From an uncultured Bacilli bacterium (lineage in GTDB: Bacteria > Bacillota_I > Bacilli_A > RF39 > UBA660), in contig CANRBE010000003.1 of assembly GCA_947628785.1 (NCBI GenBank), positions 1-44,308 of the forward strand: a DNA stretch of 44,308 nt, in the 5' to 3' direction. Position 1 is the first letter of the stretch; each line of letters opens with the position of its first letter. The notes beneath the pieces are model-generated. The model searched no databases. It saw only the letters and a program-made list of their open reading frames with translations, and was not told where the DNA came from. Below are positions 23,201-44,279 of this stretch, in pieces. A program made the position numbers and the translations under genes.

Positions 23201-23219
23201 TACTATTATTGTCGATTTT
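23201..23219 (+). repeat. Direct repeat flanking cassette A (left copy)
   Basis: TACTATTATTGTCGATTTT; the right copy, with one mismatch, is at 23606-23624. The right-hand part, ATTGTCGATTTTT followed by CGAACG, also opens cassette B at 41831. Confidence 0.7.
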
Positions 23220-23245
23220 TACCGAACGCTTTTTCGTATTTTTTA

Positions 23246-23275: not shown

Positions 23276-23319
23276 ATTTTATCAAGACATACTCTATCGT
23301 CCAGGGGGTCGGTATTTTC

Positions 23320-23349
23320 CCTTTTTATTTTAAATTTAAAATAGAAAGG
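23320..23349 (+). promoter_or_regulatory. Shine-Dalgarno-sequestering hairpin of cassette A
   Basis: A 30-base self-complementary segment: CCTTTTTATTTTA pairs along its whole length (13 bp, one G-T) with TAAAATAGAAAGG, four-base loop. The 3' arm contains AAAGG, the ribosome site of the small ORF at 23355. Confidence 0.75.
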
Positions 23350-23354
23350 TGATG

Positions 23355-23450
23355 ATGCTTATTAGATTTTACTTTATAAGTTTTAATAAATATAATAAAA
23401 AACCAAGATTTAACATCTTAGAGTTTATTTATCATCAGTGTTTATTTTAG
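23355..23450 (+). CDS. Candidate small peptide of cassette A (31 aa)
   Basis: The short ORF starts at the second of two adjacent ATGs (23352, 23355), five bases after AAAGG. The peptide starts MLIRFYFISFNKY and ends IYHQCLF; it is basic and aromatic, with no clear membrane helix, unlike the cassette B peptide. The 3' part of the ORF shares an ACATCTTAG stretch with the cassette B ORF, which hints at distant homology. Support for translation comes from the position: it directly follows a perfect hairpin over its ribosome site, and the same arrangement exists in cassette B. By analogy it may be the toxin of a type I toxin-antitoxin pair, but the coding claim is uncertain. Confidence 0.45.
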   Translation: MLIRFYFISFNKYNKKPRFNILEFIYHQCLF

Positions 23451-23471
23451 CAAAAATAAATAAACAACGAA

Positions 23472-23510
23472 AAATACCGTTTTCCTAAATGAATTCGGTA
23501 TTTTTCCTTT
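23472..23510. terminator. Bidirectional terminator hairpin A2 of cassette A
   Basis: AAATACCG (23472-23479) pairs with CGGTATTT (23496-23503). T-rich tracts follow on both strands, so it can end both the small-ORF mRNA and the antisense RNA. Confidence 0.75.
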
Positions 23511-23523
23511 AAACAAAACAAAA

Positions 23524-23555
23524 GGGAAAATACCACTTGGGTATGTCTCTTTTTA
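23524..23555 (+). promoter_or_regulatory. 3' segment of cassette A complementary to its own 5' leader
   Basis: GGGAAAATACC (23524-23534) is the exact complement of GGTATTTTCCC (23311-23321), and GTATGTCT (23541-23548) of AGACATAC (23285-23292). The two pairs are nested, so read-through mRNA can close into a 5'-3' panhandle. ATACC/GGTAT plus a T-rich tail here may be a second terminator. Confidence 0.6.
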
Positions 23556-23605
23556 TGAAGTTTCCTTCATAAATTAATAATATCATAATTTTTTACTTTA
23601 GCAAG

Positions 23606-41650: not shown

Positions 41651-41768
41651 AAAACTAAAAATACCCTAATTCTATTTGAGTTAGGGTATTACCGAAAAAA
41701 ATCTTAAGTAGCACTTAACTAATCAATATTAAGTATTCCTTTTTTATTATATGAAATTTCTTTCACTA
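41651..41768 (-). ncRNA. Putative antisense-type RNA B1 (orphan second copy)
   Basis: Minus-strand promoter TTGACT (41797-41802), exact 17-base spacer, TAATAT (41774-41779), extended TGA. RNA of about 105-115 nt from near 41767, with 5' hairpin GTGAAA-GAAA-TTTCAT (41751-41766) and terminator AATACCCTAA/TTAGGGTATT (41660-41669 and 41681-41690) then TTTAGTTTT. It is a close copy of the antisense RNA B2 at 42087-42200, including the same promoter and the same 11-base terminator loop, but no small ORF accompanies it. Between them they form the repeat pair 41660-41780 / 42093-42214. Confidence 0.65.
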
Positions 41769-41783
41769 AATACATATTATCAT
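41660..41783. repeat. Direct repeat B1 (first copy)
   Basis: Matches 42093-42216 with a few differences. Identical or near-identical blocks: the terminator loop TTCTATTTGAG, TAGCACTTAA, TATTAAGT, and the run from TTTTTTATTATATGAAATTTC to TACATATTATCAT. The copies are about 430 bases apart. Confidence 0.75.
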
Positions 41784-41830
41784 ATCATTATGGTAAAGTC
41801 AAATGGTTTTCCATTGAAATATAAAGGTTA

Positions 41831-41850
41831 ATTGTCGATTTTTGTCGAAC
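41831..41850 (+). repeat. Shared cassette-start motif
   Basis: ATTGTCGATTTTT followed two bases later by CGAAC; the same motif opens cassette A (23208-23227). A hairpin AACAAA/TTTGTT follows at 41859-41875. Confidence 0.6.
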
Positions 41851-41878
41851 GTTTTTTTAACAAATTTCATTTGTTCGC

Positions 41879-41907
41879 TTGTTTTTCTTTTTCACATGTA
41901 CTATGAT
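41879..41907 (+). promoter_or_regulatory. Putative sense promoter of cassette B
   Basis: TTGTTT (41879-41884), exact 17-base spacer, TATGAT (41902-41907). The RNA would start near 41914 with AGGACACTTAATA, which is complementary to the mRNA 3' end. Confidence 0.65.
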
Positions 41908-41936
41908 TTATTTAGGACACTTAATAGTTAGGGGCT

Positions 41937-41955
41937 ACCTCCATAAAAAGGAGGT
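41937..41955 (+). promoter_or_regulatory. Shine-Dalgarno-sequestering hairpin of cassette B
   Basis: ACCTCC (41937-41942), 7-base loop ATAAAAA, GGAGGT (41950-41955). The 3' arm is the ribosome site of the 30-codon ORF, six bases before its ATG. Confidence 0.85.
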
Positions 41956-41962
41956 GTTGCCT

Positions 41963-42055
41963 ATGAGTAAAAAAGATTTTTTAATCTTTTCTCAATTTGT
42001 TATAAATTGTGCTCTCATAGGAGTGATTTACATCTTAGTTTTAACTCTAAGATAG
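41963..42055 (+). CDS. Small hydrophobic peptide, candidate type I toxin (30 aa)
   Basis: The ORF starts at ATG 41963 after an unusually strong GGAGGTG site at ideal spacing that is itself buried in a hairpin. The peptide begins MSKKDFLIF and ends LVLTLR: a basic start, one membrane helix (about residues 11-28, INCALIGVIYILVLTL) and a terminal Arg. This is the profile of type I toxins such as Fst, Ldr, TxpA and BsrG, though I do not recognise it as one of them. It is transcribed opposite to an antisense RNA that overlaps its 3' end, in the gap between tlyA and alaS. Too short for usual gene callers. Function inferred. Confidence 0.72.
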   Translation: MSKKDFLIFSQFVINCALIGVIYILVLTLR

Positions 42056-42086
42056 TAGACTTGACATCACGACTTTACATCAAGAT

Positions 42087-42200
42087 AAAAAAATACCCCT
42101 AATTCTATTTGAGTTAGGGGCTAACAAAAATAAAATTTGGTAGCACTTAACACGCAAATATTAAGTGTTCCTTTTTTTATTATATGAAATTTCTTTCATT
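42087..42200 (-). ncRNA. Putative antisense RNA (antitoxin) of cassette B
   Basis: Minus-strand promoter TTGACT (42230-42235), exact 17-base spacer, TAATAT (42207-42212), extended TGA. RNA of about 115 nt from near 42200: 5' hairpin ATGAAA-GAAA-TTTCAT (42184-42199) and terminator CCCCTAA/TTAGGGG (42096-42102 and 42114-42120) followed by TATTTTTTT. It is antisense to the mRNA 3' region. It is also complementary to the 5' leader over 12 bases, because AGTTAGGGGCTA (42112-42123) is repeated at 41926-41937 just before the SD hairpin. Confidence 0.75.
42144..42180 (+). terminator. Sense terminator of cassette B
   Basis: CACTTAA (42144-42150) pairs with TTAAGTG (42161-42167), then TTCCTTTTTTT. The 3' arm, TATTAAGTGTTCC (42159-42171), can instead pair with the mRNA 5' end GGACACTTAATA (41915-41926). 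Confidence 0.7.
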
Positions 42201-42237
42201 AAATACATATTATCATAAACAAAACATCAAGTCAACA

Positions 42238-42266
42238 TTGACAGGCAACAAAAAAAGATATATAAT
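42238..42266 (+). promoter_or_regulatory. Consensus sigma-A promoter of alaS
   Basis: TTGACA (42238-42243), exact 17-base spacer, TATAAT (42261-42266): a full consensus match. Its -35 is only two bases from the -35 of the divergent antisense promoter. Confidence 0.88.
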
Positions 42267-42274
42267 TAAAACAT

Positions 42275-42465
42275 ATTTTTTATTAATCAGTGATGAAGAA
42301 AAAGTAATTATTGGTCTATATAGAGAGCTAGTGATTGGTGAAAACTAGTTAGATAAATAATGAAATAGCTACCTTCTAAGATTAATCGGTTAAAACCGTT
42401 ATATTAATTAAGTAAAATAAAGGATGGTACCGCATTATTTGCTCCTTGCAAGTAATGCTTTTTTT
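42275..42465 (+). promoter_or_regulatory. T-box leader, alanine-specific
   Basis: Transcription-attenuating riboswitch that reads uncharged tRNA-Ala. Stem I distal elements (AGAGAGCTAGTGATTGGTGAAAACTAG region, 42322-42348), then the specifier loop ATAGCTACC with GCT (Ala) at 42368-42370; the T-box motif AGGATGGTACCGC (42421-42433) and terminator stem GCATTATTTGC/GCAAGTAATGC (42432-42442 and 42448-42458) followed by seven T. The T-box first base (GATGG for the common GGTGG) is slightly divergent. Uncharged tRNA-Ala would stabilise the antiterminator and turn alaS on. Confidence 0.93.
42432..42465 (+). terminator. Attenuator terminator of the alaS T-box
   Basis: 11-bp stem GCATTATTTGC/GCAAGTAATGC (one G-T pair), loop TCCTT, seven T. 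It overlaps the T-box motif and so competes with the antiterminator. Confidence 0.93.
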
Positions 42466-42491: not shown

Positions 42492-44279
42492 ATGAATTTA
42501 AAAGATTTATACATTGATTTTTTTAAAAGTAAAGGACATAAACAAATACCAAGTGCACCAGTAGTGCCTGAAAATGACCCATCAGTACTTTTTAATATTG
42601 CTGGAATGCAACCATTAATTCCATATTTAATGGGACAAACTCACCCCTATGGAACTAGACTTTGTAACTACCAAAAATGTATTAGAACCGTTGACTTAGA
42701 ATGTGTTGGTGATAAAACACATCACACATTTTTCGAAATGTTAGGTAATTGGAGTTTAGGTGATTACTTTAAAAATGAAAGCATTGAATGGAGTTTTGAA
42801 TTTTTAACCAAAATACTTAAAATAGATGTAAATAAATTAGCAATTACTGTTTTTGCAGGTAACGATGATATTCCCTTTGATGAAGTATCATATAATAAAT
42901 GGTTAAGTTTAGGCATAACAAAAGAACGTATAGCTAAAACTAGCGATGATAACTTTTGGATAGCTGGTAGCTCTGGACCATGTGGGCCTGATACTGAAAT
43001 ATTTTACTGGCAAGGTAGTAAAAAACCACCTGTTAAATTTGATACAAGCGATGAAAATTGGGTGGAAATATGGAACAATGTTTTTATGGAATTTAATAAA
43101 AATACCGATGGTACAATCAGTGAATTACCTAAAAAAAATGTTGATACAGGTATGGGAGTTGAAAGAGTTACCGCTATATTAGAAAAAGTAGATGATAACT
43201 ACCTATCTAGTATTTGGAAAAACACAATAGATTTAATATCTAAACTAAGTAACTTACCTTATAAAGGTAATGAAAAAAGTATGCGTATTATAGCTGACCA
43301 TCTTAGAACATCAATCTTTATAATAGCTGATCCAGCCGATATCAGACCAAGTAATACCGAACAAGGATATATACTTAGAAGATTAATTAGGAGAGCTATT
43401 CGTCATATTAAAACTTTAGGTATAGATATAAATAGTAATTGGGAAAGCAAACTAACAGACATAATAGTTAAACAGTACCAAAAATATTATCCAGAATTAA
43501 AACAAAAAAAGGAAACTATTATAAATACATTAAAAATTGAAAAAGAAAAATTCAATAAAACCTTAGAAAGAGGACTTAAAAAATTTGAAAAAGCTATTCA
43601 AAATAGCCATCATATCGATGGAACCTTAGCCTTTCATTTATTCGATACCTATGGTTTTCCTTTAGAACTTACAGTTGAACTAGCTAAAGAAAAAAACATT
43701 GATGTTGATATAGAAGGATTTAAACAAAAATTTATGGAACATCAAGAAAAAAGTAGAACCGCAACTGCATTAAAATTTAAAGGAGGATTAGCTGGCAACC
43801 AAGAAATAGAAATAAAATACCATACAGCTACCCACCTTTTAAATGCTGCTTTAAAACAAATTATTGGTAAAGGTGTTCATCAAAAAGGTTCAAACATAAC
43901 CTCAGAAAGAATGAGATTTGATTTTAGTTGTGACCATAAACTTACCGATATAGAAAAACAGAAAGTAGAAGATTTAGTAAATAAATGGATTGATGAAAGC
44001 TTACCTGTTACTGTAAAAGAAATGCCAAAAGATGAAGCTTTAAAAACAGGAGCTGAATGTATGTTTATCGAAAAATATCCTGATATTGTAACAGTATATT
44101 CAATCGGTGATATCTCTAAAGAACTTTGTGGTGGACCTCATGTTAAAAACACTAAAGAATTAGGAAAATTCATCATAAAAAAAGAAGAATCTAGTTCTAG
44201 TGGAGTAAGAAGAATTAAAGCCATCTTAAAAGGTTCTATGTCAAGTAGTGTTGGTGGAGCCAAAACTCATGATAAATGA
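42492..44279 (+). CDS. alaS: Alanyl-tRNA synthetase, compact form
   Basis: The 595-aa enzyme charges tRNA-Ala with alanine. The class II core is complete: FFKSKGHKQIPSAPVVPENDPS, FFEMLGNWSLGDYFK (about residues 80-94), WIAGSSGPCGPDTEI and VDTGMGVERV. After the tRNA-recognition helices (GTLAFHLFDTYGFPLELT) it jumps to the editing domain HTATHLLNAAL (444-454) and ELCGGPHV (Cys546, His550), then ends soon after SSSGVRRIKAI. Compared with the usual 870-880 aa, about 110 residues of the beta-barrel segment before HTATH and the whole C-Ala domain are absent. The ORF ends in a normal TGA, so this is not truncated by the window edge. AAGGAGAAG precedes the ATG. Confidence 0.95.
   Translation: MNLKDLYIDFFKSKGHKQIPSAPVVPENDPSVLFNIAGMQPLIPYLMGQTHPYGTRLCNYQKCIRTVDLECVGDKTHHTFFEMLGNWSLGDYFKNESIEWSFEFLTKILKIDVNKLAITVFAGNDDIPFDEVSYNKWLSLGITKERIAKTSDDNFWIAGSSGPCGPDTEIFYWQGSKKPPVKFDTSDENWVEIWNNVFMEFNKNTDGTISELPKKNVDTGMGVERVTAILEKVDDNYLSSIWKNTIDLISKLSNLPYKGNEKSMRIIADHLRTSIFIIADPADIRPSNTEQGYILRRLIRRAIRHIKTLGIDINSNWESKLTDIIVKQYQKYYPELKQKKETIINTLKIEKEKFNKTLERGLKKFEKAIQNSHHIDGTLAFHLFDTYGFPLELTVELAKEKNIDVDIEGFKQKFMEHQEKSRTATALKFKGGLAGNQEIEIKYHTATHLLNAALKQIIGKGVHQKGSNITSERMRFDFSCDHKLTDIEKQKVEDLVNKWIDESLPVTVKEMPKDEALKTGAECMFIEKYPDIVTVYSIGDISKELCGGPHVKNTKELGKFIIKKEESSSSGVRRIKAILKGSMSSSVGGAKTHDK

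Follow-up and report, generated by a model that had tools for sequence, protein, structure and literature searches.

An antisense RNA that overlaps the 3' end of a toxin mRNA has been shown to regulate TxpA and BsrG (PMC7430163), a direct-repeat arrangement is described for Fst (PMC7472228), and in AapA the full-length mRNA is closed and the trimmed mRNA active (PMC6733600). Here we report a locus, cassette B, which lies between tlyA and alaS in a 44,308-nt stretch (the window; all window coordinates are positions in it) of contig CANRBE010000003.1 from an uncultured Bacilli bacterium, whose genome is represented by 1.23 Mb in 104 contigs and is 76% complete. From the sequence comparisons, B quite probably belongs to a multi-copy family of type I toxin-antitoxin systems present throughout one order of gut Bacilli. 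This reading is the best supported one because the cassettes have a conserved hydrophobic peptide under purifying selection and conserved convergent promoters, and because their 5'-3' helix and their leader/antisense repeat covary and they occur in multiple copies and tandem arrays.

An earlier note on this DNA had proposed for B a sense promoter, a 30-codon hydrophobic open reading frame (ORF), a sense terminator and a convergent antisense promoter, and when the sequence was re-examined these predicted elements and all others that it named were found where it had placed them. On the forward strand, the sense (toxin) promoter (41879-41907) combines a weak -35 box (TTGTTT, 41879-41884), a 17-nt spacer and a -10 box (TATGAT, 41902-41907), the latter at the place where an alignment of 87 relatives has its -10 (mostly TATAAT), 5' of the same RNA start. 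The predicted toxin mRNA of about 264 nt (41915-42178) extends from GGACACTTAATA to the sense U-run and is conserved in A2, an alignment of 48 divergent copies that we used for pair counts. Its leader begins with an outer arm (GGACACTTAATA, 41915-41926) and an inner block (GTTAGGGGCTACC, 41927-41939), and a hairpin formed by TACCTCC and GGAGGTG (41936-41956; arms 41936-41942 and 41950-41956) buries the Shine-Dalgarno (SD) sequence as had been described, with seven pairs instead of six. The putative toxin ORF (MSKKDFLIFSQFVINCALIGVIYILVLTLR, 30 aa) occupies positions 41963-42055. Further downstream, a 3' inner block (GGTAGCACTTAAC, 42139-42151) is the complement of the leader inner block, and the sense intrinsic terminator (CACTTAAC...TTAAGTG followed by a U-run, 42144-42178) has a 3' arm (42159-42171) that doubles as the outer partner of the mRNA 5' end.

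On the reverse strand, a promoter with the boxes TTGACT-17-TAATAT and a TG extension (42207-42235, read from 42235 to 42207) is predicted to give rise to an antitoxin RNA of about 113 nt (approximately 42200 to 42087), close to the antisense RNA of about 115 nt over the mRNA 3' end that had been expected. This RNA would start with a 5' hairpin (ATGAAA-GAAA-TTTCAT, 42184-42199) and stop about 32 nt past the toxin stop codon at an intrinsic terminator of its own (hairpin CCCCTAA.../...TTAGGGG and then a U-run, 42120-42087), separate from that of the sense RNA (42144-42178). A 12-nt direct repeat (AGTTAGGGGCTA) is found in the leader at 41926-41937 and again at 42112-42123, where the antisense terminator overlaps it.

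Neither the sense RNA (41915-42180; z = -6.4) nor the antisense RNA (z = -4.1) had a shuffled version as stable as itself. The mRNA 5' end of B can pair with its 3' end as previously suggested, 41915-41926 with 42159-42171 in an outer helix, and the leader inner block continues this with 42139-42151 in an inner helix of 13 bp with one mismatch; the 6-bp pair of GCTACC (41934-41939) and GGTAGC (42139-42144) in the earlier note does exist, as the end of this longer helix. In A2, the outer helix is paired in 96.3% of cells and 7 of its 12 pairs show changes in both partners; the corresponding figures for the inner helix are 87.6% and 9 of 14, giving 16 of 26 pairs for the two helices combined. 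The antisense-terminator hairpin is likewise retained (93.2% paired; 6 of 8 pairs covary). The pairing score was reached by none of 500 shuffles, and pairing over the three counted helices dropped from 92% to 34-47% when the partner was shifted by one to three columns. Compensating inner pairs can also be seen by eye between B (GCTACC/GGTAGC) and the copies on contigs C2 (GCCACC/GGTGGC) and C82 (GCTGCC/GGCAGC) of the same genome. Among 33 clustered families, leaders pair with their own 3' end at -31.8 kcal/mol versus -24.0 kcal/mol with a foreign one (0 of 5000 permutations as good), and folding predicts the closed form for 97.7% of 87 full-length mRNAs.

The leader block has a further potential partner. 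In the hairpin of the antisense terminator, the 5' arm is complementary to this block and the 3' arm repeats the leader; the antisense RNA should therefore be able to pair with the leader. The idea that the 12-base repeat lets the antisense RNA reach the leader is supported by covariation in the relatives, where leader block and hairpin arm are paired in 97.2% with 5 of 9 pairs covarying. The body of the antisense RNA also resembles the toxin leader, as seen from a match (42132-42171 on the reverse strand, 9.9 bits) of our leader model R1, which was built on sequence only because RNAalifold gave no consensus pair for the leader alignment, the length of the SD hairpin being variable.

The peptides of the family follow the pattern M-x-KKDFLI plus a transmembrane stretch and are mostly 24-30 aa long, with MSKKDFLIFALIIIILLLIALLFVILK and MSKKDFLISAQFIVIVALIGVIYILVL as typical forms. 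The ratio of nonsynonymous to synonymous polymorphism (pN/pS) is 0.28-0.37 in the 27-codon relatives, indicating purifying selection on the peptide, and the SD and start codon are conserved. The product is probably a single-helix membrane peptide, for which we infer a toxin role. Searches of Pfam, NCBIfam and PADLOC with the peptide gave no convincing family; SecE, phospholamban and MacP were below cut-off and were discarded as generic transmembrane-helix matches. A search for Hol_Tox (PF16935) gave no match with the peptide either, and true Hol_Tox controls were recognised (62.5 bits for the L. paracasei control).

As for the distribution of the cassette, of 385 genomes of the order, R1 finds it in 277 (and in 223 of the 305 that are of high quality), with up to 12 copies each; the ORF and helices are kept in the relatives that were aligned. 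A search of a class-wide sample gave matches in genomes of the same family only. The records are metagenome-assembled genomes, largely from animal guts, labelled Bacilli, Mollicutes, Erysipelotrichaceae and similar, and their lineage is probably of the RF39 type. Eight matches (E < 0.001) are present in the window genome, whose close paralogues include two in tandem on C2, one on C82 and a 3' part on C91, and contig C36 carries four more divergent cassettes within about 3 kb that also encode different peptides, e.g. MTKREFSQFIIILLLFLVVIILLLK. Three contigs of this genome end inside or beside cassettes. The 87 copies with full anatomy were collected by a peptide search over 145 family genomes and a DNA pattern in named genomes, after removal of false matches; five peptide matches (L051, L056, L057, L058 and L063) were dropped as parts of larger proteins or non-ORFs. 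Collections of viral contigs, phages and plasmids held no match to the cassette, and a mobile-element identity was rejected on these grounds. In two loci (L052 and L101) the 3' part of the cassette is broken, after the toxin stop codon, by a sequence resembling the end of an insertion element (CCCCAAAAGTTGGACA).

Both promoters are retained in the family. An antisense promoter score of 10 or more out of 13 is reached by 75 of the 87 relatives and by 4 of about 80 shuffled regions, and the TG extension is present in 76 of the 87. Between the sense -35 and -10 of many relatives, at a fixed distance to the RNA start, we found a LexA-type box (RAAC-N4-GTTY), exact in 21 of 85 sense promoters (0.03 expected) and with at most one mismatch in 37 of 85 (about 1 expected); exact boxes were absent from the antisense promoter regions. 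The lineage possesses lexA, with the same box 5' of it in most loci read, and 9 of 11 genomes of the family, among them the window genome, have an exact box 5' of recA. Two of the C36 cassettes of the window genome also carry an exact box in their toxin promoters. With a LexA-type operator at the toxin promoter of this subset, DNA damage would raise the toxin mRNA there. B has a palindrome just 5' of its -35 (AACAAAT-TTC-ATTTGTT, 41859-41875), a possible operator that is not a LexA box.

On the basis of these features we propose the following scheme. The sense promoter would yield the mRNA of about 264 nt for a membrane peptide with a single helix and 24-30 aa, and the hairpin would cover the SD once the mRNA 5' end emerges. 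When transcription is finished, the leader may use its first 26 nt to pair with the final ~35 nt of the transcript, which in its complete form would then be a closed and inert store. Three mutually exclusive partners would be available to the leader block GTTAGGGGCTACC: the 3' block of its own mRNA (closed form), the downstream hairpin of the same RNA through its 5' arm, and the matching part of the antisense RNA. Loss of the mRNA 3' end may free the leader and turn the mRNA into an antisense target, by analogy with AapA (PMC6733600), and the antisense RNA might then anneal at two sites, the 3' overlap and the leader, by analogy with the two-site contact of Fst (PMC7472228). Binding would block translation or recruit RNase III, with degradation as in TxpA and BsrG (PMC7430163). 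A shortage of antisense RNA would allow the peptide to be made and to act on the membrane, and in relatives with the LexA-type operator DNA damage could increase the toxin mRNA.

Several points weigh against this scheme. In the predicted folds of relatives, the mean unpaired probability of the SD is 0.13 in the full-length mRNA, 0.16 after 3' trimming and 0.17 in the leader alone, and in B it is 0.02 for the full-length and 0.0004 for the trimmed form. The SD is hence paired in every fold, and trimming alone does not obviously turn on translation. For the same reason the earlier suggestion that the inner pair opens the anti-SD is not supported: in the minimum-energy fold the 5'-3' pairing shortens the SD hairpin, but the released bases pair elsewhere. 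The LexA-type boxes are concentrated in related copies, and kinship inflates their counts; after clustering, a box with at most one mismatch remains in 11 of 33 sense versus 4 of 33 antisense regions, and an exact box in 2 of 33 versus none. The -35 of B itself is weak, and SOS control of B was rejected because a LexA box is missing from its promoter at that position. Finally, transcription, 3' trimming, antisense inhibition, toxicity, membrane action and SOS induction are steps that we infer.

We also found a partial copy without toxin 5' of B (41657-41802), an addition to the earlier description, that contains an antisense terminator, a 3' block and an antisense promoter (41802-41774). Its 3' part is 85% identical to the 3' part of B, and with a promoter and terminator that look intact it is a candidate orphan antitoxin RNA; a similar piece is present on C91. 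The duplex predicted for this copy with the leader of B is weaker than B's own (-23.0 vs -32.8 kcal/mol). A fuller picture can be drawn, in which a type I family with a new toxin is spread in multiple copies over the order, its leader has three partners, its pairing segments have diversified so as to limit cross-talk, part of it is under SOS control and antitoxin copies without a toxin go with it; this picture is tentative and, taken as a whole, rather doubtful. Small-genome, largely uncultured gut bacteria appear to carry several copies per genome of an unannotated module, and its peptides, if they are toxins, form a toxin family found in neither Pfam nor NCBIfam, with a link to DNA damage suggested for a part of it. 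Moreover, the covariation indicates that end-to-end mRNA pairing coexists with a 3'-overlapping antisense RNA, as in rli28/Hol_Tox loci. The cassette family is widespread and apparently unnamed, a candidate type I toxin-antitoxin system with a new peptide; a literature search, with sparse reach into subscription journals, found no earlier description.

Some other features of the window were observed beside these. A second cassette (23282-23560), probably cassette A of the earlier note, has the same layout and an unrelated sequence; its 5' GACATACTC...GGTATTTTCC pairs with GGGAAAATACC...GGTATGTCTC, and it has a possible ORF, MMLIRFYFISFNKYNKKPRFNILEFIYHQCLF. An element similar to TGTCGATTTTTGTCGAACG occurs 5' of both cassettes (41832-41850 for B and 23208-23234 for A). 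Next to B, a T-box leader of alaS (42281-42449) scores 77.1 bits, under the Rfam cut-off of 93, and the alaS ORF (42492-44279) has only 595 aa and seems to lack the usual C-terminal domain, its end following the editing domain.

The origin of the cassettes can be explained differently. In Rfam, no family matches the window at the gathering threshold, and matches at E <= 10 to microRNA, plant-virus and Bacteroides small RNA models were judged to be chance. The covariance model of rli28 (RF01492) gives a sub-threshold match to B that spans the whole model (32.2 bits, E 0.02-0.05), and this weak match led us to compare TxpA/RatA-like loci (PMC9484302, PMC8249650). A possibility, though not the favoured one, is that the TxpA/RatA-rli28-Hol_Tox lineage gave rise to the cassettes as a diverged branch that inherited the RNA architecture, with its toxin ORF either exchanged for another or shifted to the start codon that comes first after the SD hairpin. 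Seven rli28/Hol_Tox loci on plasmids of lactic acid bacteria have the same 5'-3' pairing (-29 to -38 kcal/mol versus means of -13 to -19 kcal/mol for shuffled partners), with covariation visible by eye (GGCGGTGGC/GCCACCGTC and GACGGTAGC/GCTACCGTC), and they share the order of hairpin, 3' block and terminator; their SD motif ahead of the first AUG is similar as well (GGAGGTGGTGCTTATG vs GGAGGTGTTGCCTATG). The RNA architecture is thus shared with a known kind, and the earlier view that the combination is an unfamiliar one is not supported; the peptide has no match in Pfam or NCBIfam, and the Rfam match of the family is sub-threshold. Against descent from this lineage, the rli28 score is under the gathering cut-off of 45, the peptide lacks the Hol_Tox match that true Hol_Tox peptides give, RatA (RF01776) is not listed up to E = 10 on the antisense strand of B, and a like architecture can evolve twice. 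Run over the class, the rli28 model matched only one genome outside the family. We do not claim membership of the rli28, RatA or Hol_Tox families because of the rli28 cut-off and the lack of RatA and Hol_Tox matches. This alternative is a question of descent and is compatible with the proposed mechanism.

A type I system would be the wrong interpretation if the peptide were a useful small membrane protein, such as a stress effector or a regulator of an enzyme or transporter, with its level set by the antisense RNA. The copies do occupy intergenic sites of the chromosome next to core genes (tlyA/alaS at B, and ogt, recognised by eye, on C2), are missing from the phage, plasmid and viral collections and encode a peptide under purifying selection. 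A harmful product nevertheless accounts better for copy numbers of up to 12, for tandem arrays, for copies that are partial or broken by insertion elements and for the double silencing by SD hairpin and closed mRNA, and we regard the explanation as a useful protein as unlikely. A selfish intergenic repeat with an incidental ORF, to which the high copy number, tandem arrays and contig ends inside cassettes might point, is highly improbable given the coding selection (pN/pS ~0.3), the conserved SD and start codon and the retention of both promoters.

Compared with known systems, the cassettes read as a type I toxin-antitoxin family resemble TxpA/RatA (rli28/Hol_Tox and BsrH-like loci; BsrG/SR4 and BsrE/SR5) in the convergent antisense RNA predicted over the mRNA 3' end, the short hydrophobic peptide and the SD held in a short helix, as in txpA (PMC7430163). 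The seven rli28/Hol_Tox loci add the leader/3'-end pairing, and an antisense-terminator hairpin with a leader complement is visible there too. Unlike these, the B family has a toxin that is not Hol_Tox by Pfam, an rli28 score below cut-off and no RatA match, and its toxin ORF starts at the first AUG past the SD hairpin; at this place the inspected loci of Lactobacillales carry a mini-ORF, AUG GUG UAA in most cases, together with a second SD. In Hol_Tox loci L205 and L207-L212, this tiny ORF lies right after the SD hairpin and 5' of the toxin's own SD, and translational coupling as in hok/mok is possible.

Fst/par (RNA I/RNA II of pAD1) and Lpt share with B the convergent RNAs and promoters (predicted in B), a direct repeat as a second antisense contact near the SD or translation start, an intramolecular SD stem-loop and a sequestered mRNA 5' end (PMC7472228, PMC5608710). 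In contrast to Fst/par, the B family does not have a shared bidirectional terminator, its peptides lack the Fst signature (PXXXG in the transmembrane segment, Trp and a charged C-terminus), and its 5' end is held by the far 3' end rather than by a local upstream helix. The long-distance 5'-3' pairing, supported in B by prediction and covariation, recalls the full-length toxin mRNAs of hok/Sok and aapA/IsoA, and the local SD-sequestering hairpin can be compared with the metastable hairpins of aapA3 (PMC6733600). However, the antisense RNA of the B family lies at the 3' end, whereas theirs covers the 5' region or the ORF; a sequence relation to these systems was not found, and the 3' trimming that activates them brings no SD release in the folds of the B family. 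The SOS-induced type I toxin system tisB/istR is similar in the LexA-type operator over the toxin promoter, which is seen in a subset of the relatives and not in B, and differs in having a divergently encoded small RNA in place of the cis convergent antisense RNA. The B cassettes are best read as a type I family with a new toxin but with an RNA architecture that is not unprecedented, one that closely resembles the toxin-antitoxin systems of lactic acid bacteria and in which the antisense RNA probably acts as the antitoxin.
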